From: a virus
DNA: 64,000 nucleotides
Virus record (IMG/VR): IMGVR_UViG_3300020595_000016
Span: 42,856 to 106,855 of that record
Reading direction: 5' to 3' (one strand)
The position numbers and the translations under genes are program-made. The notes beneath the pieces are model-generated. The model had not been told where the DNA came from. It made no database searches and saw only the letters and a list, made by a program, of their open reading frames with translations. Below, piece by piece: positions 6,355-20,400 of the stretch; within the stretch, counting starts at the first letter, position 1, and each line of letters starts with the position of its first letter.

Positions 6355-6606
6355 CTATTTTTTTCTATTGCGTCTTTCTTGTGCTCTTATTCTTTTTCGC
6401 TCTTCTCTCTTACGAAGTCTTTCTGCCTTAAGGCGCTTTTGTTTCTTCGCTTCTGAAGGCTTTTTGTATCTTTTGCGGTCTTTAATCTCTTCGACAATCT
6501 TTTCTTTTTTTGTTTTCTTGATAAACTTTCTTATCATCTTGTCGTGATTGCCTCGGCATTCCTTTGACTTGACGATTACGTTAGCTTTTTTTCTACTTTT
6601 AGCCAT
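6355..6606 (-). CDS. rpsU: Ribosomal protein bS21 homologue
   Basis: An 83-residue, strongly basic protein. Residues 10-75 align by eye with bacterial bS21. A VIVKSKE-like first strand is followed by MIRKFIKKTKKEKIVEEI (host: ALRRFKR..EKAGVLAEV). Then come a DRKRYKKPSEAKKQKR block (host: RREFYEKPTTERKRAK) and a long Arg/Lys helix. bS21 binds near the 3' end of 16S rRNA in the 30S subunit and takes part in initiation. Several marine and huge phages are known to carry bS21. It lies between a tagged head-region gene and the fibre genes; the leader shows only a weak Shine-Dalgarno. It could replace host bS21 during infection; that is inference. A generic basic DNA-binding protein is the alternative, made unlikely by the YKKPS block. 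Confidence 0.8.
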   Translation of the reverse strand: MAKSRKKANVIVKSKECRGNHDKMIRKFIKKTKKEKIVEEIKDRKRYKKPSEAKKQKRLKAERLRKREERKRIRAQERRNRKK

Positions 6607-6610
6607 TTTT

Positions 6611-7033
6611 CTATTTCATCGCTCGCCAGATCTTAGATGCGTCACCGACCAAAGAACTTATGTTTACACCCGAATCAGCCGGGTCGCCTAAGTCAACTGA
6701 ACCTGCTTTGGGAGATGCCGCTTCGTAGCTGTTCATCGGAGCTGTGCCTTCAAACAAGTCAACGCCGTTATACGCATCCGAACCAATCGAATCCATAAGT
6801 TGGCGTCGGTACTCATTTATTTGTTTTTTAGTGTTTTTGGCTGTAGCCACGCGGGACTCTTTTCTCACAACTGGTGTTGGGGCCGGTGTGCTCTCGGATA
6901 ACACTGAGGCGGCACTTAAGCCAGCGGCAACTTCACTTACCACACTAGAAAGCAGCCCTTCTTCTATCAATATTTCATTGATGCACTCTTTCACTAGTGG
7001 CTTTATAATCTTCTTTAAATCATTTTTTTTCAT
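6611..7033 (-). CDS. Head-region protein with divergent N-terminal tag
   Basis: A 140-residue protein starting MKKNDLKKIIKPLVKECINE. The amphipathic helix is a divergent form of the MKITKQQLKQIIKEE tag seen in other genes here. I-x-E occurs at residues 18-20 and L-I-E at 22-24, possible prohead-protease sites. An Ala/Ser/Pro-rich linker follows, then an ordered-looking half with AYNGVDLFEGT. It overlaps the prohead protease gene by 14 bases. In T4 the place after the protease belongs to scaffold and capsid genes, but this is far too short for a capsid protein. It is probably an internal or core component of the prohead. Confidence 0.5.
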   Translation of the reverse strand: MKKNDLKKIIKPLVKECINEILIEEGLLSSVVSEVAAGLSAASVLSESTPAPTPVVRKESRVATAKNTKKQINEYRRQLMDSIGSDAYNGVDLFEGTAPMNSYEAASPKAGSVDLGDPADSGVNISSLVGDASKIWRAMK

Positions 7034-7646
7034 CGTTCACCAGTTCATCAATTAAGATATCATTCATCAGACGGTTAATCTTATCTTCTTTCGTCATTAT
7101 TTTGTTTTGAAAGTTTTTGGATTCTTGCATCATAAATGCATTAGGTGTCGATGGTTCAGACACAAAATCAAAACATATGAGTTGAAAGTCATCTTCAACA
7201 ATGGTGACATCTTTTTCTTCTCTTACTGAACCCATGCCGCGGGATGAAATTCCCATTTTACAGCCACCAATAACTAATTCTTGCAAAATTTTGCCAGCTG
7301 GGGTATTCATTACTTGAACCTTGCCCATAGCCACATTGCCATCCATCCAAATCTCAGTGACTCGGTGGGACACTCTCTCCAAAGAAACAACATTGTTTTC
7401 GGGGTGGTCCAGTTCGCCCAGTGCTCGGTGTTCTGAAACTAATTTCTTATAGCTGTTTACTTCTCGTATGATAACTTCAGGCGGGTACATTCTACGGTTG
7501 CCGTTTACGACGCCACCTTCTTGAAGTTTGCCAGTCAAGATCATGCCACCTTCAGCAACAAACTTCTTCTCGGCTTCCGTTAGCAGATCTTGGCATACTC
7601 CGCCTTCACATAGCTCGTAATATTCTCTTAAAAGTTTCTGACCCAT
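7020..7646 (-). CDS. 21: Prohead core protease, T4 gp21-like
   Basis: A 208-residue serine protease of the T4 gp21 type. GKLQEGGVVNGNRRMYP near residues 40-55 matches the family's conserved start. LGELDHP (residues 77-82) holds the catalytic His81. GISSRGMGS (132-140) holds the catalytic serine (S134 or S135). The length matches T4 gp21 (about 212). In T4 this enzyme sits in the prohead core, activates itself, and cuts scaffold, capsid and internal proteins after [L/I]-x-E. That rule matters here because many neighbouring gene products carry [L/I]-x-E near the N-terminus. A good Shine-Dalgarno (AAGGGAAG) precedes the ATG. It follows the portal block with four small unknown genes between, as in T4, where 67 and 68 separate 20 from 21. 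Confidence 0.92.
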   Translation of the reverse strand: MGQKLLREYYELCEGGVCQDLLTEAEKKFVAEGGMILTGKLQEGGVVNGNRRMYPPEVIIREVNSYKKLVSEHRALGELDHPENNVVSLERVSHRVTEIWMDGNVAMGKVQVMNTPAGKILQELVIGGCKMGISSRGMGSVREEKDVTIVEDDFQLICFDFVSEPSTPNAFMMQESKNFQNKIMTKEDKINRLMNDILIDELVNDEKK

Positions 7647-7713
7647 AGCTAACTTCCCTTACAACAGTGGCGTACTGGTTGCAACATCCATTTGGTGATC
7701 CATATATCGATAT

Positions 7714-8061
7714 TCATTTTGTAGGCACCTCAGAGGTTTGAGAGCCCTGCCGTTGGACATCCTTAGAACGATTGCGGAACCTATTAGCAAAATCAAGATA
7801 AGTTCTGATTTTTTCAGACTGTGTAAAATCTTTCTCGTTTGCGTTCTCGATCATGGTGAGTACTCCCTCAAGAAAAGGAACTAATTCGCTATAGTCATCA
7901 AGTTGTTGTATTTGGGTCATAAGCATAGCCTGCATTCTTTCGAGCGTTACGGTTACAGTTTGTGGTACCTTGTTTTCGGGCGGTGGTTCTGGCGCTTCTT
8001 TTAAAGCCGTAGCGATCTCTTCGTTCAATATTTTTCTAAGTTCGGATTTTGTTATAATCAT
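7714..8061 (-). CDS. Tagged small protein, candidate internal head protein
   Basis: A 115-residue protein. I choose the ATG at 8061, in an ATGA overlap with the upstream stop and preceded by AGAGGT, rather than an upstream in-frame codon. It then starts MIITKSELRKILNEE, a clear member of the MKITKQQLKQIIKEE tag group with L-N-E at residues 12-14. A proline-rich linker (EAPEPPPENK) follows, then a helical domain with LERMQAMLMTQIQQL and a charged C-terminus. The helical make-up and position between portal and protease would fit a prohead core or internal protein; the function is unknown. Confidence 0.6.
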   Translation of the reverse strand: MIITKSELRKILNEEIATALKEAPEPPPENKVPQTVTVTLERMQAMLMTQIQQLDDYSELVPFLEGVLTMIENANEKDFTQSEKIRTYLDFANRFRNRSKDVQRQGSQTSEVPTK

Positions 8062-8384
8062 AATTTGTTTACCTCTGTTTTTTGAAAATTTATTCCTTCG
8101 TCGCCGAAGATTATGTTTAATACGTACGATGTTCCCGACGACAGCCACCCAAGAAGGAAGAAATTTAACACGGAAACGTCAAAATTAAATAGTTCTGTAA
8201 ATGGAGAAAGTAACATCAAAAGCCAGCCAACATGAAAACCCATGCACATGGGGCAGTGAAAAACCTTGCCATATCCGCCTGCTGCTTCTTTTGAGGGTCG
8301 TAGCCTGTTTAGCATCGGCATGTCGCTATATACTAGTATTTGAGTGAGCCCGTAAGCGCATAATATAAAAGTTATTAAGTCCAT
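8058..8384 (-). CDS. Small membrane protein with CPMC motif
   Basis: A 108-residue protein, starting MDLITFILCAYGLTQ at 8384, eight bases after the upstream stop. A longer in-frame start would overlap the upstream gene by 92 bases and is unlikely. It has an N-terminal hydrophobic segment, a middle FHCPMCMGFHVGW followed directly by a second hydrophobic segment, and a third (VLNFFLLGWLSSG). The Cys-x-x-Cys next to a membrane helix recalls the DUF1360 type of small membrane proteins; I am not certain of that link. A membrane protein inside the head block is unexpected. It could act at the inner membrane during infection or have a redox or metal role. Confidence 0.6.
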   Translation of the reverse strand: MDLITFILCAYGLTQILVYSDMPMLNRLRPSKEAAGGYGKVFHCPMCMGFHVGWLLMLLSPFTELFNFDVSVLNFFLLGWLSSGTSYVLNIIFGDEGINFQKTEVNKL

Positions 8385-8391
8385 TTTTTGC

Positions 8392-8931
8392 CTATATCGT
8401 ATACATGTAGTTAGATGAGTAAGTGTCTCGGATGTACCCGGGCTGTATCGAACCTTTCTTGGTGCTCTGTGGTACTTCGCCAAGCTCTGTAGAATGTGTG
8501 TTGTCGGGGTTAGCTAACGCACTATCATCCATTGCCACAATAGCCTCAAGAGATTCAAAGTATGGTCGCTCTTCGTCAATAAATTTAGAGATATTTAGGA
8601 GAGCCATCTTTGAAGGTAGAGCAGCTTCGTCCGTAGACGTTTCTAGGGTTGCCTCGAAGGCTCCGAAAAAAGAACCCCCTTGAATACTTTCCGGCACAAC
8701 GATGCCTTTGTTTTTGAGTCTCTCAAAGAGTCTATTTTGCGCTCCATATACCAAGTCATTTAAGGTAATTTTTGGAAAAGCTATAACTTTATTTTTTTCT
8801 GGTGAGACAATAATGTCGATGTCCCCATGATCAAAGATCATGAAATCCCCACTTAAGCTCTTTCTGATGTCGAGTTCCAACACAACTTCTTGTGGCTTGG
8901 ATTTTGAACCAATACTAATCTTTATTGACAT
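8392..8931 (-). CDS. Head-block protein of unknown function
   Basis: A 179-residue protein starting MSIKISIGSKSKPQEVVLEL and overlapping the upstream gene by 17 bases. The first 80 residues look like a compact mixed fold with DFMIFDHGDIDIIV and KNKVIAFPKITLNDLVY. The C-terminal third is polar and probably flexible, ending in a tyrosine-rich YIRDTYSSNYMYTI. The tight packing between portal and protease genes suggests a role in prohead assembly (the T4 gp67/gp68 position), but I recognise no family motif. Confidence 0.55.
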   Translation of the reverse strand: MSIKISIGSKSKPQEVVLELDIRKSLSGDFMIFDHGDIDIIVSPEKNKVIAFPKITLNDLVYGAQNRLFERLKNKGIVVPESIQGGSFFGAFEATLETSTDEAALPSKMALLNISKFIDEERPYFESLEAIVAMDDSALANPDNTHSTELGEVPQSTKKGSIQPGYIRDTYSSNYMYTI

Positions 8932-9754
8932 CTTCGTTAAGCTCCTTCACAAGTTTTTGAGTTTTCATTATAGTAATAAGGGTACTGTCCTCTAATTGAC
9001 AAAGCTTGAATTCTTCTAACTTGTTTAGTATTCTTTCGGCTTTGTCAGTCATGTTGGCATCGATGGTTGGCGCTTTGTCGGTAATTGCTTTGGATATTTC
9101 AGTTTTAAGCCTGGTAATTTCTTCATTTAGAAACACTTTTAGTTCTAATGCATTATCAGAAAAGGATGAAATATAAAACCCTAACAATTCTTTCTGCTCA
9201 TTGAGCAGGGTGCTATCATATTTATCATTAAATTTATTCAAAAAGATCTTAAAGGTAGATTCGTCTATAGTCTTTTGATCTGGGTTGCCTGCATCAACTT
9301 GTTTTGCGCTCATTGAATCAATCAATTGAGCTTCAAGCATTACTTGTCTTTTCGGACTTAAGTGACCAGAAAAAATTTGATCTATCGTAGCTAAATTTTT
9401 ATAATTTGGAACAAAATTGTTGAAGACCTCTGTGTCCACTTCCTTGTTGATATCAGATATCATTTCACTTTGTTTCTTAAAAAGATGATCGGGTGTGATC
9501 ATCTTTCTTCTGAACTTTGATTCTGTAATAATCCTTGCGCAAGTTTCTGGGCTAAGGTTTTGGTTTTCGTATAACGACCGATAGCAATCTAAATCTTTTC
9601 TTAGAATAGAATCTCCGTTAAAATACTTTTTAATTAAATCTACTACTTTTGTATGCTTATCGGTTTCATTTTTTAATATAGCAACAGTAGCTTCTTTAAT
9701 TAATGCTTCATAAACAAACGCGGTGTTGCGTTTTTTATTGTGTTTAGTCTTCAT
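8915..9754 (-). CDS. Helical head-block protein, unknown function
   Basis: A 279-residue, almost wholly helical, highly charged protein starting MKTKHNKKRNTAFVYEALIKE. It has long Lys/Glu/Leu-rich stretches and no membrane segment or cysteine motif. It overlaps the portal stop by 11 bases and is probably translated by coupling. Its position directly after the portal is that of the T4 core genes 67/68, and helicity fits a scaffold-like protein, so a core or scaffold role is my guess. No enzyme motif is visible. An alternative is a portal-associated chaperone. Confidence 0.55.
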   Translation of the reverse strand: MKTKHNKKRNTAFVYEALIKEATVAILKNETDKHTKVVDLIKKYFNGDSILRKDLDCYRSLYENQNLSPETCARIITESKFRRKMITPDHLFKKQSEMISDINKEVDTEVFNNFVPNYKNLATIDQIFSGHLSPKRQVMLEAQLIDSMSAKQVDAGNPDQKTIDESTFKIFLNKFNDKYDSTLLNEQKELLGFYISSFSDNALELKVFLNEEITRLKTEISKAITDKAPTIDANMTDKAERILNKLEEFKLCQLEDSTLITIMKTQKLVKELNEDVNKD

Positions 9755-11768
9755 TTTTTTGCTCCGTTATTGTGCTTGTCTTGGTTTCCAGTTCCAAAAT
9801 TAAATCTCTGACTGAGTGGTTGACTTCAAAAAGTTTATCTTCTTCTGTGCGTTCCCTCAAATTATAAATAGAAGGAACTTCGTTATAATCACTTTCCGTA
9901 GTTATACCGTTAGCATAGCCGGTGGTTTTTACTAGCGACATTATGTCACTAAGACCCGGCACTGTTTTTCTCGGATCATGGGTTCCTGCAGCTCTACTGA
10001 GGGATACCTTCCGGCGGCCTTTGTTATTGTAATTAGAACCATCACGCTTTGGAAAATATTCTTTCCCTTTATCATTGGGAGTTCTTTGGGCCTTATTCTT
10101 ACGGCGAAAGTCTCTGTTTCCAGGAGGGACAGCGACCAGTGCGGAGTCACTGCCCGAATCAGCAGGCGCGCCGGCTGCGTCAGGCGCGGAGGCGCTATTA
10201 TCGGGAAGCGCTGTGTCTGCCTCACCGGGCGTAATTTCCATTGGACCTCCACCGCCGGCGGGAGGCATGTCGGAGCCTAAGCCCATGTCGGCGCCGCCTG
10301 GGCCCATCGCGGTAGCTTCTGCAACTGCCTGGAGTGATGCGTCATGTTTTCTGTCGTAATACATTTCTCGCTGGTTTCTTGCAAACTCTTCGGTTGACAT
10401 ACCAAAAACATGATCTGCGACCCAACGTCGTGAAAAGTATCCTTCCGTCGCTGAGCCAGCAATATCAAATTTCTGTTTCCAATGCTCAAGTTCTTGAAGC
10501 TCAGCAATCTTGGAAGGGTTATTGAGCGCCAAATTAAAACTCAGTAAATCATCGCCGCGGAATCCAAGAGTATACAAATGAATGATTCCGATCTTAGTTA
10601 ACTCAGAAACCAACACTCGCTGCAGTCTTTGGATGGTGCGTGCGAACCTAATATCTTTTTGTGCAAGTGTTGTCTTATCTTCTTCCCCACCTTCACCCAT
10701 TGTTAAATACGACTGGGGAATCTTGAGAGCGGAAAACAATTTATCTCGAAGATATTTGACATCATCAATTTGGGTAGTGTTAGTGCCGCCGGCAAGGTTT
10801 TGGATATCGGTCACAGAGCCCGGGCGTACGGGAATAAAGTAATCTTCCTCGATGCTCATTGGATTATAGCGTAAGTCAACTCGACCGGTATCTTTGTTAA
10901 TAACTGAATGTCGCTTAAGTTGGGTTACAATTTTTTCCATATATTGTTCAACATCTTGGGGTGGTATGGCGCCAACATCGATTTTGAAAACGCGCCTCTC
11001 AGAAGACCGCACAACTCGATAAGCCATCATTGCATCTTCAGCCAACGTAAGTTGGCGCCAAATGCGGCGGGCAGGCTCTAAAATCGAAGTTCCATATGGC
11101 GCATATTTGTCATGCCCTAATATTCTAAAGTGTGCTATCTGCCAATTTTCAAAAGTCATGGCAGCAGAATTCCACTGATATTGTACATAATTTGGGTTGG
11201 TGGAATCTTGGCCTTCTAAACGCTCAATTTCTGGTGGAGGAAGTGCTATTACAGATTTGACACCAAACTTTTCGTCAATGTCGAGGTAAAGGAAAAAGTC
11301 CCCATACTTGCACATAGTTCGCGCCCAGCCAAATAAGTTATACTGTAAGTTTAAAATGTTGTCAAACAGTATATCTAGCACGGCTCGTATCTCTTCGTTT
11401 GCGCATTTAATCTTCAACATCGGACTAAGGCTTGAGAAGGTTGTCATCTCGTCTGCATAGATGTCCATGGCCGAAGCTATTTCCGGCATGTACTCCATTT
11501 GATCGAAATCGACATATCTTTCGTTTCTACGTTGACTTTGGATTGCATTTGTTGCAATTGTGTCTAATGGATTATAAAGGGTCTTTTTAAATTGCTGGCC
11601 CGAGGCGGACTTGAATCTAGCAGAAAATTTATCGAGGTGTTGTCTTCTAATTTTCCGACCGGTCTGCGAGCGGTAATTAATGATGGGGCCAGAGAACAAC
11701 CTAGTTAATCTTTTGAATAACTCTGATTGTCTGTTGGCTGGGTTGTTTTTGTTACTGGTAGGTGGCAT
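9744..11768 (-). CDS. 20: Portal vertex protein, T4 gp20-like
   Basis: A 674-residue portal. The N-terminal 60 residues are basic. DQMEYMPEIASAMDIYADEMTT (about 90-111) is the usual gp20-type block where the acidic and aromatic residues are conserved. RVVRSSERRVFKIDVG and KTTLAQKDIRFARTIQRLQ also match the family. The last third (about 480-600) is low in complexity, rich in Gly, Pro, Ala and Ser, and longer than I expect for T4 gp20 (about 524 residues). A conserved-looking short end follows. The portal forms the dodecameric ring at one capsid vertex, where DNA enters with the terminase next door. Confidence is high from sequence plus context. Confidence 0.9.
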   Translation of the reverse strand: MPPTSNKNNPANRQSELFKRLTRLFSGPIINYRSQTGRKIRRQHLDKFSARFKSASGQQFKKTLYNPLDTIATNAIQSQRRNERYVDFDQMEYMPEIASAMDIYADEMTTFSSLSPMLKIKCANEEIRAVLDILFDNILNLQYNLFGWARTMCKYGDFFLYLDIDEKFGVKSVIALPPPEIERLEGQDSTNPNYVQYQWNSAAMTFENWQIAHFRILGHDKYAPYGTSILEPARRIWRQLTLAEDAMMAYRVVRSSERRVFKIDVGAIPPQDVEQYMEKIVTQLKRHSVINKDTGRVDLRYNPMSIEEDYFIPVRPGSVTDIQNLAGGTNTTQIDDVKYLRDKLFSALKIPQSYLTMGEGGEEDKTTLAQKDIRFARTIQRLQRVLVSELTKIGIIHLYTLGFRGDDLLSFNLALNNPSKIAELQELEHWKQKFDIAGSATEGYFSRRWVADHVFGMSTEEFARNQREMYYDRKHDASLQAVAEATAMGPGGADMGLGSDMPPAGGGGPMEITPGEADTALPDNSASAPDAAGAPADSGSDSALVAVPPGNRDFRRKNKAQRTPNDKGKEYFPKRDGSNYNNKGRRKVSLSRAAGTHDPRKTVPGLSDIMSLVKTTGYANGITTESDYNEVPSIYNLRERTEEDKLFEVNHSVRDLILELETKTSTITEQKNED

Positions 11769-11782
11769 CTTCTTCTCTCTTA

Positions 11783-13366
11783 TTATTTAATAATCCACTT
11801 GTATTGGTCATACATATTCTTAGCTTCCGATATTTTATCAAATATATTATCTTTTTTGTAGCCCTCTTGACCTTTAATTTGTGTATTAAAGGAAGTTTTA
11901 GAGGTAACAATTGAATTTGCATATGCCATTTTATAATTTAACTCACGGGCGCTGTTTTGTATTGCGGTATCTCTCACCCAACAAGCGATTGCTAGCGCCA
12001 TGATGAGATCATCATGGTAGCCTTTCATAGCCTGTGGTTTTCCGTTTTTCCAAATAAAGGTCTTCATCTCGTTAGTTAAACGAGAAGAATATATGGTAAT
12101 TAGTTTATTTCTGATAAACTCTTCCAACTTGGCAACTATTAATGGGCGCGTCTTCATAGATGTAGTGAATCCTGGAACCGAATTTGAAAGATATTCTGCT
12201 TGATGTTGCTCTACAAATTCATGAGAAGTTTTTATGGAGTAATACAAATTAGGATATGCCAACTCTATTAGTTTATTTAAGACCGAATACCCAATATTGT
12301 TGTTTTCTACGACTAACAACGCGTTGCCAAACTCGTGGCCGGCTTGATTAAGTATTGTCGCATACATATCCAGGGCTGGCTTGCCCTGATATTCGGCCAC
12401 CGCTTCTAAGGTTTCTAATTTTATAACATGAAATGTGGAGTAATCAGCACCATCGCCGCGGGCAACATCGGCAACTAACAAATAATTGCATGTCGGGTCA
12501 TACTCTTCCCAGATCCAGAAATTTCTATCGAATCCGGTTCGATACTTGGGCTCTTTTACACCAGAAAATAACCACTCCAGACACTCGGGATCTACAACAG
12601 TCTCACCAGAAGTATTGAAATTGCACTGTAACTCTTGAGCAATTTGCCGTTTCGACATATTTCTGGTTTCTTTCTTGTACCACTCTTCATCTCTATCTGG
12701 GTGCACATCCCAAGGTAACGTAGTTAAATTAAAATTATTCGCGGATGCATCGGCGTCGGTGCACGTCTTGTGAAACCAGTTACCTACCCCATTTGGAGTT
12801 GAAAGGGCAATGCAGCGGCCACCGGTAGATAGCGTAGGATACAGGCCGGTCCACAGTTCTTCTAGACCATCAATGTGGGCGGCCTCATCAAGCACCAACA
12901 ACGACAGAGCCTCAGAACGGCCGGCATCGCCAGAGGTGGAAGTGGCTTTTATCGAAGATCCATTCGACAGCTCAAAAGAAGTCCGGTTGTCGACACTAAT
13001 GGTCGCAATCTTAAGCCAGTCAGGAAGGTTTCTCATGATGTTCTTGACTTTTTTAACTAAGTTTCCTGCTGTTGCAAACTTTGTGGCCATAACTAAGATG
13101 GCTTTATCCCGATGGAATAACATCATCCAAACAACATACCCGGCCGTAATCGTTGAAATCCCTAGCTGCCTTGCCTTAAGGATAACATTGAACCGGTAAT
13201 CATTGAAGTCTTTCAATAGGTCATCTTGAAACTCATATGTGTCGAAAAGAATTAACCCGTGCATCGGGTGGGATATACGGGCGTATGTCTTCAAAAAATA
13301 AGATGGGTCTTTACCGCATTTTAATATTTCTTTGACCTTTTGTTTTTTGTCTAGTTGAAAGCTCAT
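11783..13366 (-). CDS. 17: Terminase large subunit, T4 gp17-like
   Basis: A 527-residue packaging motor. The ATPase half has Walker A KARQLGIST (64-72), Walker B LLVLDEA (156-162) and the coupling motif ALSTPNG (187-193). The nuclease half has LLVADVARGDGADYS with Asp300, LLVVENNNIG with Glu354, and a last acidic pair in GYHDDLIMALAIA near residue 455. That completes the RNase-H-like metal site that cuts concatemers. It overlaps the upstream 182-residue tagged gene by four bases. In T4, gene 16 (small terminase) sits at this upstream place, but that gene here looks different. All catalytic residues appear intact. Confidence 0.95.
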   Translation of the reverse strand: MSFQLDKKQKVKEILKCGKDPSYFLKTYARISHPMHGLILFDTYEFQDDLLKDFNDYRFNVILKARQLGISTITAGYVVWMMLFHRDKAILVMATKFATAGNLVKKVKNIMRNLPDWLKIATISVDNRTSFELSNGSSIKATSTSGDAGRSEALSLLVLDEAAHIDGLEELWTGLYPTLSTGGRCIALSTPNGVGNWFHKTCTDADASANNFNLTTLPWDVHPDRDEEWYKKETRNMSKRQIAQELQCNFNTSGETVVDPECLEWLFSGVKEPKYRTGFDRNFWIWEEYDPTCNYLLVADVARGDGADYSTFHVIKLETLEAVAEYQGKPALDMYATILNQAGHEFGNALLVVENNNIGYSVLNKLIELAYPNLYYSIKTSHEFVEQHQAEYLSNSVPGFTTSMKTRPLIVAKLEEFIRNKLITIYSSRLTNEMKTFIWKNGKPQAMKGYHDDLIMALAIACWVRDTAIQNSARELNYKMAYANSIVTSKTSFNTQIKGQEGYKKDNIFDKISEAKNMYDQYKWIIK

Positions 13367-13911
13367 ACATTTTTAAGGTTATCTTCCTCTTTGATCACTT
13401 CGCGAATAAGGGCCATCAGGTCACCAAGTTCAAGTACCTCTCTGATACCGGCAATTCTACCTTGTCGTTGACGGAGTTCAAATTCTTCGCCGCCATATTC
13501 CGTAGAAGGTTTTGCGTCGGGCTCTTGTTGCTGCATTTCAATCCCAGGCAACATTTCAAACACATCCTGGAATAACCCCTGGACGTCCTCCGGTGACATA
13601 CCTTTTATTAGGGAGAATATCTGATCTTCTAGATGTGCGCCCGGGCGATCTTGGAAGCCGGAATATTCACTTTCTGGGGCATCGTCTGCTGGGATATCCA
13701 TAGGCATTGTATCTTCGTGGGGGAGACCTTTTCCTTTTGGTCGGGGTACTTCTGGTGGAGGCGGAATTGGCCTACTACCTTTACGATTACTTTTGATATT
13801 CTTCATCATCTGATCAAATTTTTCGGGAGAAAGGGCCTCTGTCTCGATACCCTCTTCTAACATAAACTCTTCTAAGACAATGCGTCTCAATTCTTGCTTA
13901 GAAATTTTCAT
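13363..13911 (-). CDS. Tagged acidic protein before the terminase
   Basis: A 182-residue protein starting MKISKQELRRIVLEEFMLEEG, a member of the MKITK-type tag group; candidate protease sites are L-E-E at 13-15 and 19-21. A proline-rich, probably disordered stretch (PIPPPPEVPRPKGKG) follows, then a helical domain with LEDQIFSLIKGMSPEDVQGLF and a C-terminal helix. It lies where T4 has the small terminase gene but shows no helix-turn-helix that I can see. It is either an internal or core protein carrying the tag or an unusual small-terminase equivalent. I favour the first because of the tag. Confidence 0.55.
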   Translation of the reverse strand: MKISKQELRRIVLEEFMLEEGIETEALSPEKFDQMMKNIKSNRKGSRPIPPPPEVPRPKGKGLPHEDTMPMDIPADDAPESEYSGFQDRPGAHLEDQIFSLIKGMSPEDVQGLFQDVFEMLPGIEMQQQEPDAKPSTEYGGEEFELRQRQGRIAGIREVLELGDLMALIREVIKEEDNLKNV

Positions 13912-13913
13912 TA

Positions 13914-14459
13914 TTATTGATCGCCGTTCTTAGTTCGCGTATCGTTGTCGGGGCGCTTACCCTTCCAGTCGCCAAGTTCAAGAAACTTTTTGTATCCATC
14001 TTGCAAAGAATCAGAGGAATATTGAGGAACTGTTGTTTCGGTACTCACATCCTCAATGATATAAGTGCGAACGGCTGTCACCCAAGTTCTTACTCGGCTG
14101 GTGGCTTCCACACGAATATCGGTCTCACCTTCCTGCTTCAGTGAGACACCATTTTTAGTAATCTTTTTATATTCTTTCTTTAAAAAAGAGGCTACATCGT
14201 TTAACGTACTGTCAATATTATCTTCAAAGCCGCCCCTGTAGACTTCTTTTAATTTGGTCTCCGAATGATATGCCAGAATCATTTTGTTTCCGAAAAACCT
14301 GACATTAAATCCATCTATTACCCGGCGATCAATAAGGGGATTTCCATCCTCCCGGTTCAAGCCGGCTAACACAGACTCACCTTCTTCGTTTAAAGCTCCG
14401 TCATAAGCATTTGCTGCTGCTTGCGAGAGACCTTGAATAATTTCATATACTGTAGCCAT
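13914..14459 (-). CDS. Conserved-looking head-block protein, unknown
   Basis: A 181-residue protein. I use the ATG at 14459 (MATVYEIIQGLSQAAANAYDG), just after the upstream stop; longer frames would overlap the zinc-ribbon gene by about 95 bases. Alternating strands and helices (RVIDGFNVRFFGNKMILAYHS) suggest a compact fold. FLKKEYKKITKNGVSL and RVRTWVTAVRTYIIEDV follow, with a polar tail. It stands between the lysis-like set and the packaging genes. It could be a neck or tail-completion protein, but there is no motif I can name. Confidence 0.55.
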   Translation of the reverse strand: MATVYEIIQGLSQAAANAYDGALNEEGESVLAGLNREDGNPLIDRRVIDGFNVRFFGNKMILAYHSETKLKEVYRGGFEDNIDSTLNDVASFLKKEYKKITKNGVSLKQEGETDIRVEATSRVRTWVTAVRTYIIEDVSTETTVPQYSSDSLQDGYKKFLELGDWKGKRPDNDTRTKNGDQ

Positions 14460-14463
14460 TTTT

Positions 14464-14856
14464 TTATTTATCCTTTTTAATTTCGGGGCGCCAACCGGTT
14501 GACCATCTTTTTTCTCTGTCTTCAACATATTTGTAGTAACAATAACTGCAACATTCAAATTTTACAAGACACACATCATCCAGTGATTTCTTAGGAAGAT
14601 TTCCGCAGACAGGACAATTTGCTAAAGATTCTCTACTAAGTAGTTTTTTTGACACTTTAACGCCATCAATGTCTATTTTTTCTTCCCAAGCATCGGACTT
14701 GCGACTTTTACTATAAAACACACCTAGCTGTTCTAAATACATTTTCTCTTTTTCCTCTGACCAATTTGTGTGAGGATTTTGAATTGCTTCATCTCCATAC
14801 TTTTCGCTGATGGCTTTTTCTATAGCTGCTATTTTATTTAAATTTTTGTTGGTCAT
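14464..14856 (-). CDS. Zinc-ribbon protein
   Basis: A 130-residue protein with an N-terminal helical part and a Cys-rich part. NCPVCGNLP (about residues 80-88) and FECCSYCYYKYVEDREKRW (about 100-118) give two Cys-x-x-Cys pairs for one zinc ion. Small zinc-ribbon proteins of this make-up are frequent in T4-like marine phages and uncharacterised as far as I know. It overlaps the upstream gene by four bases. It may bind nucleic acid or another protein. No enzyme residues are visible. Confidence 0.65.
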   Translation of the reverse strand: MTNKNLNKIAAIEKAISEKYGDEAIQNPHTNWSEEKEKMYLEQLGVFYSKSRKSDAWEEKIDIDGVKVSKKLLSRESLANCPVCGNLPKKSLDDVCLVKFECCSYCYYKYVEDREKRWSTGWRPEIKKDK

Positions 14857-15269
14857 TGTAGAGTCTTATAAGCGCCATACGAGGCGGCAGTGCCAATGAG
14901 GATTCCACCAGCAAAATACAACCATTTGTGGCGGGGGGAGGTTTTTTTTAAGGCGCTAGATAAAAGATTAATTTCTTTATCCTTCTGCATTATAAACAAA
15001 TCATACTCATCTGTTAAGGATTTATGTTCTATTTTTAAGTTTTTCAACTTAAAGTCATATTCTTCTCTTTGGATCTTTAATTGATAATCAGTTTTTATAT
15101 CGCATGAATACTTGTATATATCATAATCTGCCAGCATTTTAGCCATGGCCTTTTCGTCGAACAAAACTCCTGCGAATGGTGCTGGCGCCTTATATTCCAA
15201 GATGGTAAACTTGGCCGGCTCAACTGCATTCGCTGAAAGACTAAGCACTAAAAGCAGTTTAAGGAGCAT
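14853..15269 (-). CDS. Exported coiled-coil protein, possible spanin partner
   Basis: A 138-residue protein from the ATG at 15269; a TTG four codons upstream is less likely. MLLKLLLVLSLSANA is a signal peptide with an Ala-x-Ala cleavage site. The body is a charged helical stretch (about 40-110). The C-terminus has a membrane segment (WLYFAGGILIGTAASYG). It overlaps the upstream gene by 11 bases, an Rz/Rz1-like arrangement. There is no lipobox cysteine, so it is not a classical outer-membrane spanin. With a signal peptide and a C-terminal anchor, the coiled coil would lie in the periplasm. A lysis role is inferred from position. Confidence 0.5.
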   Translation of the reverse strand: MLLKLLLVLSLSANAVEPAKFTILEYKAPAPFAGVLFDEKAMAKMLADYDIYKYSCDIKTDYQLKIQREEYDFKLKNLKIEHKSLTDEYDLFIMQKDKEINLLSSALKKTSPRHKWLYFAGGILIGTAASYGAYKTLQ

Positions 15270-15642
15270 ATTGAATACCAAATCGGCTTTCTATGTCTTT
15301 AATTAGCTGCTCTCTATCTTGATTGAATTTATTTCTATATTCGCCCTTTTTATCCTCTCTCAATTGTTGAATCATTTCAAGGGCATTCTCATAATCTTCT
15401 TCGATTGCTGCTATTGACTCCATGTGTTCTTCCATTAGTTTTTGTTTTTCACGAATTTCTTGCTTATGTATTTCTTTCAAGCCTTCAATTTGTGCTTCAT
15501 GGGATTCTAGTTGGGTCTCATAGGCATCTTGCATCAGCCTATAATCGCGTGTATTCTTGAGGGCTATAACAGCCAAAAGCAACACTATTAGTATTGCCTT
15601 CCAATTCTTCAGAGTAAATTCTAGTATCTTTTGTTTAATCAT
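15259..15642 (-). CDS. Inner-membrane spanin-like coiled-coil protein
   Basis: A 127-residue protein with one N-terminal membrane segment (WKAILIVLLLAVIAL, about 14-28) followed by about 95 residues of charged coiled coil (heptad-like Glu/Lys/Leu from 35 to 120). This is the architecture of an inner-membrane spanin (Rz), which links the inner membrane to an outer-membrane partner in the last step of lysis. The neighbours fit: a holin-like gene overlaps its start and an exported coiled-coil gene overlaps its end. Rz proteins share little sequence, so this call rests on layout. Confidence 0.55.
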   Translation of the reverse strand: MIKQKILEFTLKNWKAILIVLLLAVIALKNTRDYRLMQDAYETQLESHEAQIEGLKEIHKQEIREKQKLMEEHMESIAAIEEDYENALEMIQQLREDKKGEYRNKFNQDREQLIKDIESRFGIQYAP

Positions 15643-15835
15643 TGTACCCTTTTAAACGAGCCAACCCATCAATAACAGTTTGGCCCCCAATATATATAGC
15701 GGAGATTAACACCCAGTCTTCGCTAGTAACATGCCCCGTAAAGGTTAGGCCGGTCGCTGTAAGCCACACCATCAGCTTGCGGGAAGTAAGTTTTGCCAAC
15801 CATGTATCCACGAAAGCTTTTGTTGCAGCTGCCAT
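15635..15835 (-). CDS. Holin-like small membrane protein
   Basis: A 66-residue protein, starting at the ATG at 15835 in a TGATG overlap with the upstream stop. A GTG one codon earlier is the alternative. Two hydrophobic segments, KLMVWLTATGLTFTG and WVLISAIYIGGQTVIDG, flank a short polar turn. The combination with a C-terminal basic end (LARLKGYND) is typical of small phage holins, which open the inner membrane at the end of infection. No endolysin gene is adjacent in this window; it may lie elsewhere. Confidence 0.6.
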   Translation of the reverse strand: MAAATKAFVDTWLAKLTSRKLMVWLTATGLTFTGHVTSEDWVLISAIYIGGQTVIDGLARLKGYND

Positions 15836-16248
15836 CACTTACCTCTCTTGGCTTTTGATATCTCCACTGCTGCGAGTTGGGCTTGAGCGCCTTTCTTTGT
15901 CTTTGGCTTTTTTGATAATGGTCTACCGCTCTTAGTGGTCGCCTTATATCCACCTTCAACTTCCTTGATCTTTTCTTCAAGGGATTCTTCGGAATTTTGA
16001 TAGTGATCTCTTAATGCTTGGTGGAGCGCCTGGATGACGCCGCCATTGAGGTGCGAGTAGCTTGGTGGGTCTTTGGTTGCATCATCGGCAGCCTCTTGTA
16101 ACATAACAGCTAATTTTCTTTTAACCCCCTCAACAGTCATAATGCCATAGCCCGGGATCTGAATTTCAGGACTGCGGGCTTCGCCGCGCGTGTAATCCTT
16201 TAACTCTTCCTTAATAATCTGCTTAAGTTGTTGTTTTGTAATCTTCAT
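15835..16248 (-). CDS. Tagged small protein, candidate internal head protein
   Basis: A 137-residue protein starting MKITKQQLKQIIKEELKDY. The first 15 residues equal those of the next two upstream genes; after that the proteins are unrelated. I-K-E lies at residues 12-14. The body has a helical part (GVKRKLAVMLQEAADDA) and a lysine-rich end resembling a DNA-binding tail (KSGRPLSKKPKTKKG). I choose the ATG at 16248, inside a conserved junction sequence, because a longer frame would translate the junction and overlap the upstream gene. The function is unknown. A basic tail would suit a protein packed with DNA. Confidence 0.6.
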   Translation of the reverse strand: MKITKQQLKQIIKEELKDYTRGEARSPEIQIPGYGIMTVEGVKRKLAVMLQEAADDATKDPPSYSHLNGGVIQALHQALRDHYQNSEESLEEKIKEVEGGYKATTKSGRPLSKKPKTKKGAQAQLAAVEISKAKRGK

Positions 16249-16264
16249 GTTGTTAATCCATTCC
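16246..16264 (-). repeat. Conserved gene-junction repeat, copy 1
   Basis: The coding strand reads GGAATGGATTAACAACATG and ends in the start codon of the tagged gene. It is the most diverged of four copies (others at 16484, 16757 and 17213). Confidence 0.6.
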
Positions 16265-16486
16265 TTCCACTGTGTCGGCGATACGTAAGGAGGTATTTTC
16301 AACAGCTTTAATAACGGATTGCGGAATCGCCCCCATCTCGAAAAACCCCTGATCCTCCATAAGACCGATGATTTCGTCGCGGATGATTTTGGTGATTGTA
16401 GATCGGCGCGTAAAGCTGCCGGCTTCCGGTAGTCCTTCTATCTCTTCCTTAATAATCTGTTTAAGTTGTTGTTTTGTAATCTTCAT
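16253..16486 (-). CDS. Tagged small protein, candidate internal head protein
   Basis: A 77-residue protein starting MKITKQQLKQIIKEEIEGL, identical to its two neighbours over 15 residues, with I-K-E at 12-14. The remainder (TRRSTITKIIRDEIIGLMED and a short end VEGMD) is a small helical domain with no known motif. The start at 16486 is fixed by the junction repeat that ends in this ATG. It is one of three tandem genes with the same tag and different bodies, so the tag was duplicated and the bodies exchanged or diverged. The function is unknown. Confidence 0.58.
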   Translation of the reverse strand: MKITKQQLKQIIKEEIEGLPEAGSFTRRSTITKIIRDEIIGLMEDQGFFEMGAIPQSVIKAVENTSLRIADTVEGMD

Positions 16487-16508
16487 GTTGCTAATCCATT
16501 CATACTTA
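16484..16508 (-). repeat. Conserved gene-junction repeat, copy 2
   Basis: TAAGTATGAATGGATTAGCAACATG on the coding strand: it begins with the stop codon of the upstream gene and ends with the start codon of the next. Only one base differs from copy 4 over the whole unit. Confidence 0.75.
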
Positions 16509-16745
16509 TAGTTCGTTCTCAAAGTCAATAACCGCTTCTTCAGCAGTTTGTAAAAGTTCTAAAAGCTTTTGATCTTCTCTGTACGGTAGTCTGTTGCGTA
16601 TGTAATCTGCAAGAGCTTCTATTGCGGCGGTGTGTGGATCTGCTACGGAACTTGTGGAACCTCCCGGCACCCCTAATCCATATTGACCTACCTCGGCTAA
16701 TTCTTCTTTGATAATTTGTTTAAGCTGTTGTTTTGTAATTTTCAT
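16506..16745 (-). CDS. Tagged small protein, candidate internal head protein
   Basis: A 79-residue protein starting MKITKQQLKQIIKEELAEV. Of two adjacent ATG codons I take the second (16745), which is six bases from AGGAG; the first is too close. I-K-E lies at 12-14. The body has a glycine-rich linker (GQYGLGVPGGSTSS) then a helical domain (AAIEALADYIRNRLPY, LLELLQTAEEAVIDF). The tag's codons differ from the neighbours at several third positions although the peptide is the same, so selection acts on the peptide. The function is unknown. Confidence 0.58.
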   Translation of the reverse strand: MKITKQQLKQIIKEELAEVGQYGLGVPGGSTSSVADPHTAAIEALADYIRNRLPYREDQKLLELLQTAEEAVIDFENEL

Positions 16746-16756
16746 CATAATCTCCT

Positions 16757-16780
16757 ATGTTGCTAATCCATTCATACTTA
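16757..16780 (-). repeat. Conserved gene-junction repeat, copy 3
   Basis: TAAGTATGAATGGATTAGCAACAT on the coding strand, starting at the stop codon of the upstream gene. Here an AGGAGATT insertion follows, so the next start codon lies outside the repeat. Confidence 0.75.
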
Positions 16781-17215
16781 GTTTTCTGTTGGTATTTTAT
16801 TTGTTTTGTCCCAGTTCAATTCATCATGCGCTTCTAATACTCTCATAAATAAAAATTTCAAACCCTTGTCAAAAGTGGTTCGTCCTTTTTCCATATAACT
16901 GTAAAAGTCGTTGATTTCATGATCAATGACTTGAATCAGTTTTCTATACGCCTCATCTTTGTGATAATCGCCGGCGGATCGAAGAAAATAATCATCGAAA
17001 ATTTCTTCCATATAGCCGAATGTTCCTGAAGCTTCAGGTCCATCGATTGAATCTTCAAATTCTTGCTTAAGTTCATCGCCGTGTTTTTCAAGGAATGTAT
17101 TAAATTTTAATTCCGCTACTTCTTCAGGCGAGCGCGCAGGAGACATGTCAATCGCTAGCGATTGCTGCTCATCTTCTTTCAAATACCTGTTCCAATTTTC
17201 AAATAGTTGTTTCAT
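16778..17215 (-). CDS. Tagged acidic helical protein (second tag type)
   Basis: A 145-residue protein starting MKQLFENWNRYLKEDE at the ATG at 17215, which overlaps the FtsZ-like stop as ATGA. The tag is different from MKITKQQ but again has L-K-E at residues 12-14. The same tag type opens the 212-residue gene at 18366-19004. The body is helical and acidic with many aromatic residues (FGYMEEIFDDYFLRSAGDYH). It is a candidate internal head protein by the tag argument. I recognise no enzyme motif. Confidence 0.58.
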   Translation of the reverse strand: MKQLFENWNRYLKEDEQQSLAIDMSPARSPEEVAELKFNTFLEKHGDELKQEFEDSIDGPEASGTFGYMEEIFDDYFLRSAGDYHKDEAYRKLIQVIDHEINDFYSYMEKGRTTFDKGLKFLFMRVLEAHDELNWDKTNKIPTEN

Positions 17216-18354
17216 GTCGCTAATCCATTCATACTTAGTATCGCAATCAATCCAGGCACATTCTTTCGGACGTAAACGCCAGAGAAAAGTGTCTCGCATC
17301 GACCGCCGACATAAGCGATTGCCGACTCAATATTCTTACTGACTTTAGGGTCAGCCACCATCTCTTCCGAGACTACCAAAACCAATGAACCTGCCGCGGC
17401 CTTACCTTTCGGTGGGGGGCACGCTGACCTATTCATACAGTTATGGAGAATCACCGATCCAAGCTTAGCAGTATTTGGATCCTTTATCATAGTTGAGCCT
17501 AAGAAGGCACGACCGTCATTGCCCAAACATGTTTCCAAATCCTTGCTGTCAAAAGATTGAATCGGTGAATCCTCGGTGGAGAGCTTTAACACTTGGGCAA
17601 GTGACTTAGCAAAAGTTGTGTTGGCGACTGGGTACATGCCAAGCATGCCAATGCGGCCGCGCAGTAATCGTGTGGCTCGTTCATTGTCTAAAATGATATG
17701 CGGATACTTGGTGACGTCATTTGCCAGCGTCAACGCATTACGAGCGATTGTGGGGTTAAGATTTTCTTGTGCTGTTGGCCAAGAGACTATGTAAACGACC
17801 TTGCCACTCGATTGCACAGAGCGCATGTAACGCTCAAAGACAGGATGCAGAGCGGTAACACTACTACCGGTACCGCCGCCGCCGCCAGCAAGGACGAATA
17901 ACCAATCAACTTTACCGAGTTTGATACGCAGGGCATCTTCAACAATCGCGCCATTTTGACTTAAAACCTCTTTTCCATATTCAGTGTTCTTGCCGATTCC
18001 ATCAGAATCGGGGATAAGGACAACGTGGTCCTCTTCGACATTCTTTGGAATGTCTTTGCCTGTTGTATTGACAAGCAATGTTTTGTTGAAGCCAAGCTCA
18101 ATAAAAGCATTAGCCATTTTATTGCCTCCACCGCCGACACCGACAAAACCAACATTGATAGATGAGGGTGCTGTATTCTCGGGGAGTAAATCTTCATCAG
18201 AGTATTCCATCTGTAATCCGAAGTCTTCAACCATACCGAAATCTTCTGCATCTACTTCTTCGTGGTAACTGTCTTTTTCCTGCGCAAACGCGGGAGGTGG
18301 TTCTGCGGGAGGCAGAAAATCAAATTCGTTTTTATCTTCTTTTTCGTCTGACAT
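17212..18354 (-). CDS. FtsZ/tubulin-like GTPase
   Basis: A 380-residue protein with a 65-residue acidic N-terminal extension followed by a tubulin-superfamily GTPase fold. The first loop reads INVGFVGVGGGGNKMANAF (66-84). LLVNTTGKD (93-101) fits the FtsZ nucleotide strand. AGGGGGTGSS (156-165) is the tubulin signature. SFDSKD (267-272) aligns with the FtsZ T7 loop NVDFAD and keeps both acidic residues needed for GTP hydrolysis upon polymerisation. The C-terminal domain is short and there is no FtsA/ZipA-type tail. Phage tubulins such as PhuZ make filaments that centre the phage nucleus in jumbo phages; other roles are possible, including blocking host division. It sits among tagged genes but has no tag. 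The call is firm; the role is unknown. Confidence 0.88.
   Translation of the reverse strand: MSDEKEDKNEFDFLPPAEPPPAFAQEKDSYHEEVDAEDFGMVEDFGLQMEYSDEDLLPENTAPSSINVGFVGVGGGGNKMANAFIELGFNKTLLVNTTGKDIPKNVEEDHVVLIPDSDGIGKNTEYGKEVLSQNGAIVEDALRIKLGKVDWLFVLAGGGGGTGSSVTALHPVFERYMRSVQSSGKVVYIVSWPTAQENLNPTIARNALTLANDVTKYPHIILDNERATRLLRGRIGMLGMYPVANTTFAKSLAQVLKLSTEDSPIQSFDSKDLETCLGNDGRAFLGSTMIKDPNTAKLGSVILHNCMNRSACPPPKGKAAAGSLVLVVSEEMVADPKVSKNIESAIAYVGGRCETLFSGVYVRKNVPGLIAILSMNGLAT
17213..17237 (-). repeat. Conserved gene-junction repeat, copy 4
   Basis: TAAGTATGAATGGATTAGCGACATG on the coding strand. Here the unit is the last part of the FtsZ-like coding region (residues SMNGLAT) and the next start codon. 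This copy is probably the source of the other three. Confidence 0.75.
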
Positions 18355-18365
18355 TGTTAGTTTCC

Positions 18366-19004
18366 TTAAATTTTACCGTGCTTTACAAAGCCGTATCCCA
18401 TATCAACAGCATCTTGTTTACTGCCACGAATGCGATCTTCGGTAGTGTTGTATCTTTCTTTAACTTCTCGCATTGTTATTTCGGGAAGTTGCGGCGTTGG
18501 ATCACCGGGGTGAAAAGTCCAAACTTGCAGTTTTTCTTTATCTTCTCTAGATGGCCCAATGATTAAAGTTGTGTGCCTGACTTCACGGGCCGCAGCAGGA
18601 ATATCTGCAACAACCTCTGCCAAAACTTCTGGTTCACCAGTTTGCGGATTTGGCTCTTTAGTCATTGCTTTGCCACCGTGTGCTGGTTGAAACACAACTT
18701 CGTCTGGTGCTTCGTCAATATCAGCGATTCCTAACACACCGGGAATTGCGGCCTTAAACCCAATGGCTCCAATAGATGTGTTTATTGCCGGATGAGGGTG
18801 TGGTTGCCAACCGGCTTGTATTAAATCTTGGATAGAAGTTGGACCGGAAAAAGTGCTACCAGCGGCGCCGGGGCCGGCTGTGCGGGTCGACAGAGTGTCT
18901 TCTAGATATTTCGGATCTGTATTCTGAAAAGCGGAAGCTACCATCGATGCGGCATTTTGTTTCTCGTTCAAAAACTTGTTCCAATTTTCTATTAACAGTT
19001 TCAT
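18366..19004 (-). CDS. Tagged protein with THHPG-like C-terminal domain
   Basis: A 212-residue protein starting MKLLIENWNKFLNEK, the second tag type, with L-N-E at 12-14. A Gly/Ala/Ser linker (TAGPGAAGSTFSGP) leads to a domain from about residue 55. Its C-terminal half reads HTTLIIGP, VWTFHPGDPTP, ITMREVKERY and DAVDMGYGFVKHG. The His, Thr-x-His-Pro-Gly and final Lys-His pattern looks like an enzyme or toxin-type domain, but I cannot name it. If the tag directs it into the capsid, this would be the best candidate in the set for an injected effector. The ATG lies one base before the stop of the upstream gene region. Confidence 0.6.
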   Translation of the reverse strand: MKLLIENWNKFLNEKQNAASMVASAFQNTDPKYLEDTLSTRTAGPGAAGSTFSGPTSIQDLIQAGWQPHPHPAINTSIGAIGFKAAIPGVLGIADIDEAPDEVVFQPAHGGKAMTKEPNPQTGEPEVLAEVVADIPAAAREVRHTTLIIGPSREDKEKLQVWTFHPGDPTPQLPEITMREVKERYNTTEDRIRGSKQDAVDMGYGFVKHGKI

Positions 19005-19005
19005 T

Positions 19006-20400
19006 TTAGTAATATGCCTTTCCGGTTTCCTCTGCTTCGAATCCGTTCATTTCTGCCCACATTTCAATATATGCCGGTGCCTGGCCGTTGACGATCATCT
19101 TCCATGGCTCACCATCAAACAAATCGATACTAAATTTAAAGGGTGGTTCGTCACCAAAGTCTAAGGTTTTGCCTTCTAATTCCTCTATCATTTGCTCAAA
19201 AGTTTTATCAATTCCCTCGACTTCTACCTTTGGTCCGCCATCAAATTCATCTTCGATAACTTTATATGTGAAACTTTTAGAGCGCTCATGGAGCACACTC
19301 GAAAGCTCTTCTTTGGTGATTCGTTCAATCGACTCTCTTGTAAATTGTGGCGGCTTATTGGATTTTTTCTTGGCGGTTTTTAAGTGGCCGCGTCGAGAGC
19401 CTGTCTTATTAGCCAACGCCAGTGCATCGACGAGAGAGTTAATTTGGCGGCCCAAGCGATCACCCTTGATAGCGTATTTTACATTATCCATATATTTTTC
19501 GAGAGAGCTGGTCCCGAATTCGGGGTCATACAGTCCTGCGTCTTCAAGAAATTGAGCTATCGCCGGCTTATCGAATACACTAAGATAGCCACCGGCTGCT
19601 TTCCATGCAGCTTTTTCTTGAGCGTTAGGTCTTCTTTCTTTACCCATCAAGTGCGCGCGTCCGGGGTGGGGTATCTTGGTAAATGTATCTTTAAATTTTC
19701 CACGAACCTTTGGTGGCACCATGTCGCGCATTCGGAAGGGTGAGTCGTCTCCAAACTCCTCTACCATGGCTGATACTTCTTCTTTGATAATATCTTCAAG
19801 TTGTGACCTTCTAATCTTCATTTTAGCAATTCCTTCTGTATATAAATTTGGCTGTCTTTCTTCAAGCGGCTTGAGTCCAGAATCCGGGTTTAGTCCGATG
19901 TATTTGTCTATTGTAAGCTTACATTTGACAAGCAGTGGGCCGTTACCGTCCGAGTTCACAATCATTGAACCATAAGACGACCTTGCGCGCGTTGGAGCTA
20001 AATATTGAAATGTGGTATTGGGATTGTAGCGACCATCATACTCGTCATCACCAACCCAGTCGGTAACGAGATTACTGACAGCGAAATAAAAATCTTCAGC
20101 CTGTTCCGATACAGGTCCATATTCTGGCCAATCTTTTTCAGCAAGATTAAAATCAATATCTCGCTCATTCTCGTGTCCGAACATAGCGCGGAGTATCTTT
20201 TGATTTCCACATTCGTTAATTAGGAATTGGCGAGTTGCCCTCATAGGTGCAGTTGCTTTGTTTGCGGCGCCTTGGGTGCGTTGGGCGGCCTTAGACGTTG
20301 TCGTGATCGACTGCATGTAATCATCAAAATCATCTTCAGTGATAAATTTATTGATTTCTTCTTTAATAATCTCCGTAAGTTCTAACTTTTTGATTTTCAC
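19006..20400 (-). CDS. Three-tag polyprotein-like protein
   Basis: A 464-residue protein starting with GTG at 20400 (AGGAG eight bases upstream). The MKITK-type tag appears three times in one frame: MKIKKLELTEIIKEE at 1-15, MKIRRSQLEDIIKEE at 194-208, and a diverged FTRESIERITKEELSS at 353-368 with L-H-E at 370-372. The three stretches of 95-180 residues after each tag are unrelated to one another. The bases before the second tag (GGAATTGCTAAAATG) resemble the gene junctions downstream, so separate tagged genes seem to have fused. Cleavage after [L/I]-x-E would release three proteins. The internal ATG at 19821 follows AAGGA at about nine bases and could also be an independent start. The functions of the parts are unknown. 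Confidence 0.65.
   Translation of the reverse strand: MKIKKLELTEIIKEEINKFITEDDFDDYMQSITTTSKAAQRTQGAANKATAPMRATRQFLINECGNQKILRAMFGHENERDIDFNLAEKDWPEYGPVSEQAEDFYFAVSNLVTDWVGDDEYDGRYNPNTTFQYLAPTRARSSYGSMIVNSDGNGPLLVKCKLTIDKYIGLNPDSGLKPLEERQPNLYTEGIAKMKIRRSQLEDIIKEEVSAMVEEFGDDSPFRMRDMVPPKVRGKFKDTFTKIPHPGRAHLMGKERRPNAQEKAAWKAAGGYLSVFDKPAIAQFLEDAGLYDPEFGTSSLEKYMDNVKYAIKGDRLGRQINSLVDALALANKTGSRRGHLKTAKKKSNKPPQFTRESIERITKEELSSVLHERSKSFTYKVIEDEFDGGPKVEVEGIDKTFEQMIEELEGKTLDFGDEPPFKFSIDLFDGEPWKMIVNGQAPAYIEMWAEMNGFEAEETGKAYY

Follow-up and report, generated by a model that had tools for sequence, protein, structure and literature searches.

The closest described system is the set of internal proteins of phage T4 (IPI, IPII and IPIII), which are basic and in which unrelated bodies follow a short common N-terminal propeptide, the capsid-targeting sequence (CTS), which ends in [L/I]xE and is cut by gp21. 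A CTS is defined by its function, not by its sequence. The homology of the T4 internal proteins is limited to the leader, and they block different restriction enzymes (PMC12373910). In the IPIII tag, MKTYQEFIAE, suppressor mutants assigned targeting mainly to residues 4 and 7 and processing to residues 8 and 10 (PMC9026906). T4 Alt, with a cut site at ITE-6 (PMC5694885), and gp67, gp68 and gp24 are related cases whose propeptides are, however, not one tag common to many cargo proteins. In phiKZ and SPN3US, many head proteins, including ejection proteins, are cut after E by a gp21-related protease (PMC5694885), with propeptides mostly longer than 100 residues that end in A-x-E or S-x-E and share no short tag. 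Here, we describe two types of N-terminal tag, A and B, in a window of 64,000 nucleotides (bases 42,856–106,855 of the 106,855-base virus record IMGVR_UViG_3300020595_000016) and in its relatives. The tags are best regarded as capsid-targeting propeptides of a T4-type head, with a probability of roughly 0.86, and the proteins that carry them would be packaged, cut and injected with the DNA. A literature search on MKITK with phage found no earlier description, and the capsid-targeting literature that was found covers T4, P1 and giant phages.

Tagged genes in the window

A preliminary description of the window proposed that nine of its proteins carry capsid-targeting-like tags. All nine genes are present, on the minus strand, and eight of them begin with tag A or tag B. 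The ninth (6611–7033, start at 7033) proved to be a conserved head-region gene adjoining the protease gene, and does not begin with tag A; 75 homologues were retrieved, and the N-terminus of the family, as seen in the homologues listed, is MKK-DLK--IKPLVKECI-EVLIEEG-like with LxE at residues 22–24. The [L/I]xE motif was said to stand at residues 12–14 in seven of the genes, and it does so in exactly seven of the nine, against 2 of 78 untagged open reading frames (ORFs) of the same genome (Fisher p about 2e-7). The remaining 43 kb of the record yielded no tag.

Type A opens the gene at 7714–8061, between the portal and the protease (N-terminus MIITKSELRKILNEE; MIITKSELRKILNE followed by E, LNE at residues 12–14, profile score 26.5), and the gene at 13363–13911, which adjoins the terminase gene and is conserved there (MKISKQELRRIVLE followed by E, VLE at residues 12–14 and LEE at 13–15, profile score 31.8). 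Homologues of the latter retain the N-terminal tag, and another tag-like segment lies close to the C-terminus. Type A also opens putative cargo genes at 15835–16248, 16253–16486 and 16506–16745. Type B opens putative cargo genes at 16778–17215 (MKQLFE/NWNRYLKE/D, slashes marking candidate cut sites) and at 18366–19004 (MKLLIE/NWNKFLNE/K). The gene at 19006–20400 (GTG start at 20400) encodes a protein of 464 residues in which modules with type-A tags follow one another in one frame. Its in-frame internal copies had escaped the preliminary description: one at residues 194–208 (MKIRRSQLEDIIKEE, positions 19777–19821, minus strand; score 26–31, with none in shuffled bodies), and a weaker tag-like segment at about residues 351–365 (...FTRESIERITKEE, positions 19306–19350, minus strand), which contains ITKE and does not match [L/I]xE.

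The head module beside these genes is of T4 type, with a Peptidase_S77 protease, portal, terminase, gp22-like scaffold and gp23. The protease at 7020–7646, which had been called gp21-like from its translation, belongs to Peptidase_S77, the gp21 family (Pfam PF03420, E = 3.4e-26; PHROG 207, E = 4.8e-53). In contrast to the phiKZ and SPN3US systems, this is a T4-type S77 protease, and the tags do not have the A-x-E or S-x-E motif with a long propeptide. The presumed propeptide of gp23 in this lineage ends in ...LLENQAKELLRE before SS, with LLRE before S or close variants, and the site is [L/I/V]xE in the 28 aligned proteins.

Tag positions compared with the T4 capsid-targeting sequence

A conservation profile was built with tags called from the first 5–6 residues only, and positions were numbered on the assumption of a cut after E14. 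Residue 8 (P7) is L in 64 of 69 type-A tags and W in 33 of 41 type-B tags, residue 11 (P4) is I in 59 of 69 and F in 23 of 41, residue 12 (P3) is I or V in 65 of 69 and V, L or I in 28 of 41, and residue 14 (P1) is E in 62 of 69 and 21 of 41. Both tags are thus hydrophobic at residues 8, 11 and 12 with E at 14, contrary to the earlier statement that they have no other similarity. Conservation falls off past residue 16 in type A and sooner in type B. Residues 4, 7, 8 and 10 of the T4 tag correspond to P7, P4, P3 and P1, the very positions conserved in the new tags; at P7 and P4, the bulky hydrophobic character that T4 targeting needs is present. Direct reading of the T4 sequences revealed no sequence similarity of the tags to MKTYQEFIAE beyond this positional pattern, and homology is therefore not claimed. 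The new tags also differ from the T4 CTS in length (14 residues against 10) and in existing as two interchangeable types.

The motif itself was counted in 80 IMG/VR loci picked as relatives by the protease alone, with tags called from residues 2–10 only. Residues 12–14 are [L/I]xE in 87 of 100 type-A tags (93 when read as [LIV]xE); in type B they are [LIV]xE in 23 of 42, and the motif stands at 13–15 in 10 more. A further [L/I]xE occupies residues 4–6 in 37 of 42 type-B tags, as it does in T4 gp67 (MEGLIE), gp68 (MLLIPE) and gp24 (MAKINE).

These features suggest a mechanism in which the tag is a short amphipathic segment at the N-terminus, through which proteins with nothing else in common dock onto the prohead core. 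A cut after E14 by the gp21-type protease, and in type B probably a second one after E6, would then release the body inside the head. We infer that the freed body would stay with the DNA and would probably reach the next host by ejection, as an effector ready to act.

In gp23-type proteins of the GAP32/PA5oct-like jumbo lineage (loci L329, L333, L245, L271 and L348), M[SK]VILEN...[YH]L[KQ]E stands before the mature part and is close to type B, and a common origin of the type-B tag and the gp23 propeptide is possible. Profile matches in random contigs lie on gp23 of GAP32-like jumbo phages. Derivation of type B from the gp23 propeptide was nevertheless not adopted, because the gp23 site of the tag-bearing genome itself ranks only fifth-best among non-tag matches at all ORF positions and GAP32 itself fits poorly; it is left as a suggestion.

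Distribution of the tags

The profile search that the preliminary description had proposed covered the genome and its relatives. Among the protease-selected loci, type A occurs in 47 of 80 and type B in 37 of 80, against 0–3 in a shuffled null, and with one exception these lie on the same strand as the protease gene. Across all loci, the profile at threshold gave 613 type-A and 102 type-B matches, and shuffled N-termini gave none at the same threshold among 95,877 candidate starts. Random viral DNA of about the same total length yielded five type-B matches, which have one N-terminus in common, and none of type A; the one that was run against Pfam was gp23. At the DNA level, the tag-A pattern was found in at least 120 stretches of viral contigs and in only six stretches of 84,980 bacterial and archaeal genomes, all six from three metagenome-assembled genomes (MAGs).

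One such sequence, NHDW01000006 (305,838 bases; loci L368–L383), can be assigned to a phage, as it encodes both S77 and gp23. Its tagged starts number 31, and 22 of these form a tandem array of 10.6 kb at 183.5–194.0 kb; two other records, of 190 and 186 kb, contain 13 and 9 such starts. NHDW01000006 is filed under a Methylococcaceae MAG and is a jumbo phage genome binned as bacterial. In searches of cultured phages, tblastn with the 20-residue tags gave no match, which is not evidence of absence because queries this short are near the detection limit. Flavobacterium phage immuto, a cultured relative with a 44% identical protease, has no A or B tag in its head region. The tag-bearing group consists of uncultured T4-like viruses of bacteria that are probably marine.

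Linkage to the gp21-type protease

Of 25 long viral records with tags, 18 have S77, as do two of the three MAGs, compared with 5 of 16 random long records. In the Halobacteriovorax MAG, S77 and the tags are on separate contigs. Where S77 is missing, in seven viral records and one MAG, gp23 and portal matches are missing too, save for one record in which the portal runs off the contig end and which alone of the seven has a terminase. Six of the seven viral records match the baseplate protein of the window and so belong to its lineage. The S77-less viral records are therefore best explained as fragments that lack the head module, though a record of 99,413 bases and the one MAG are less clear. 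Tags in phages or bacteria without a gp21-type protease would have spoken against the proposed role; no counterexample emerged, and no tag was found in records that have a head module but no S77.

Composition of the tagged bodies

About 600 tagged proteins fall into 360–399 body families, of which 300 are singletons; a family of 125 members is inflated by single linkage. In the bodies, the observed/expected ratio of [L/I]xE is 0.91 (95% interval 0.82–1.01), against 1.22 (1.16–1.29) in untagged ORFs. At the same spacing in the same bodies, [L/I]xD, [L/I]xK and [L/I]xQ are over-represented (1.28–1.31), and no comparable drop is seen at other spacings of the motif. Exposure to an active head protease would be expected to select for such avoidance. 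The gp22 scaffold has 18 [L/I]xE against 8.6 expected. T4 shows the same arrangement, with none in ipII and ipIII and 16 against 5.7 expected in gp22. Cut-site-poor bodies, a cut-rich gp22, an S77 protease and the same key positions up to the cut are thus features that the tagged proteins have in common with the T4 internal proteins.

Some of the tagged genes, namely those starting at 13911 and 8061, look like conserved head-core genes and not injected cargo. They flank the portal, protease and terminase genes, and the gene at 7714–8061 occupies the place that gp67 and gp68 have in T4. It could be argued from this that, although the tags direct proteins to the prohead core and are cleaved, most tagged proteins serve in assembly or the core and are degraded or retained, few being injected. 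We consider this unlikely as a general account, because proteins of the core would be expected to be conserved and to contain many cut sites, whereas most bodies are singletons and avoid such sites, and because bodies include enzyme domains without an assembly role. The domains, predicted by Pfam matches in a minority of bodies, are GNAT, guanylate kinase, AAA_33/zeta toxin, leucine-rich repeats and a SAM-lyase family (PF23780), with weak matches to a kinase and a nucleotidase. A search of 101 bodies with defence-system profiles gave only weak matches (best E = 3e-4), which were not used. Given that T4 internal proteins block restriction enzymes, counter-defence is the leading guess for many of the bodies.

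Taken together, the T4 key positions, the motif avoidance in the bodies, the gp23 cut sites and the tag swaps described below support the original reading of these N-termini as tags of internal capsid proteins. Several points weigh against it. The resemblance to the T4 CTS is one of position and homology is not supported, type B fits a site at residues 12–14 in only about half of the cases, and E15 of type A is as conserved as E14, without explanation. Those tagged genes that are conserved beside head genes possibly encode core proteins, not cargo, and for the seven long viral records and one MAG that carry tags without S77, fragment status is argued only. The bodies are, moreover, mostly acidic (median isoelectric point 4.8), unlike the basic internal proteins of T4.

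Exchange of tags and bodies next to a tubulin-like gene

The same body can follow either tag. In loci L167 and L074, bodies with 62.6% identity over 115 residues (E = 4e-50) follow tag A in one case and tag B in the other, and the tags are little alike. Further A/B swaps on homologous bodies are found in GNAT proteins (L095/L136), in L186/L142, and between the gene at 15835–16248 and L078. The body domain of that window gene, 76% identical over 63 residues to a tag-B protein, is found behind tag B in L078 and L062; the AlphaFold model of its product was poor (predicted local distance difference test score of 59) and was not interpreted. Conversely, one tag can precede different bodies: the genes at 16253–16486 and 15835–16248 have tag DNA identical at 44 of 45 positions and bodies similar only at chance level. 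The bodies are thus exchangeable, as had been predicted.

This near-identical DNA in neighbouring genes would also be expected if the N-termini had no role in trafficking and had merely been duplicated with the start of translation, or served as a small helix for dimerisation. Such an account is highly improbable, as in hundreds of other tags the amino acids are kept while the DNA diverges, two unlike tags interchange on one body yet keep E14, and tags also occur internally and near C-termini. A second in-frame tagged start was found within 12 ORFs, and four N-terminally tagged proteins have a type-A-like segment 21–24 residues from the C-terminus (L099:4972–5511, L176:3080–3727, L188:2973–4088 and L033:9315–9998). 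The proteins that also carry a tag close to the C-terminus are comparable to T4 Alt, which is cut at both ends. Tag copies inside proteins and towards their C-termini are, together with the acidic bodies, new relative to the T4 internal proteins.

The variable island of tagged genes lies immediately downstream of a tubulin/FtsZ-like gene (17212–18354, minus strand; Pfam Tubulin, E = 1.8e-8). Tagged genes follow this gene in all loci examined but two, one with only 82 bases beyond it and one with a 61%-identical homologue. Among 34 first positions after it, 20 body families are found. The ATG that overlaps its stop codon, which in the window starts the gene at 16778–17215, opens either tag A or tag B, depending on the phage. 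Leader copies before tagged genes repeat the 3′ end of the tubulin-like gene, and the genes at 16253–16486 and 16778–17215 have 21 of 22 leader bases in common before different tags. Tag and body would be separate modules: recombination in this island probably exchanges the bodies behind a tag, and the tags before a body are exchanged as well. Median identity among relatives is 95% for the tubulin-like gene, 81% for terminase, 69% for portal and 65% for protease; the near-invariance of the tubulin-like gene is without explanation.

Since the island stands beside so conserved a gene in most relatives, the tags might direct proteins to something else that the phage builds in its host cell, for example a filament of the tubulin type. 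This is very improbable, because tags also occur far from the tubulin-like gene, by the protease and terminase genes, and the cut motif in the tag, its avoidance in the bodies and the positional match to the T4 CTS would be left unexplained. The predicted system is a far larger and more modular variant of the T4 internal-protein system, in agreement with the preliminary description, with up to 31 tagged genes per genome against three internal proteins in T4, and hundreds of body families (360–399, as given above). A broader reading, which we favour with less confidence, is a general cargo-loading platform in widespread uncultured T4-like phages, with tens of exchangeable effectors per phage, two interchangeable tags, multi-cargo polyproteins cut by the head protease, and an island at the tubulin-like gene that renews the cargo. 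Little is known of the cargo that phages bring into cells along with their DNA; T4 has three such proteins. A simple N-terminal signature would allow candidate injected proteins to be catalogued by the hundred from their sequences only; the function of most is unknown, and activities in counter-defence and host takeover may be enriched among them. The tags would also be a natural, swappable means of loading foreign proteins into phage heads.

Other features of the window

The gp20-type portal gene lies at 9744–11768 (PHROG 213, E = 1.3e-70) and the gene for the terminase large subunit at 11783–13366 (PHROG 2, E = 4e-50), both on the minus strand. The protease contains LLTE and FVAE at residues about 19–33, in QDLLTEAEKKFVAEGG, which are possible sites of self-cleavage or self-targeting. 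Beside the head genes, 6355–6606 encodes a lysine/arginine-rich protein of 83 residues that weakly matches ribosomal protein S21 in PHROG (E = 5e-4). The product of 24950–25519 resembles, by eye only, an FKBP-type prolyl isomerase. In the tail region, 41272–52296 on the minus strand is one open frame of 3674 residues.

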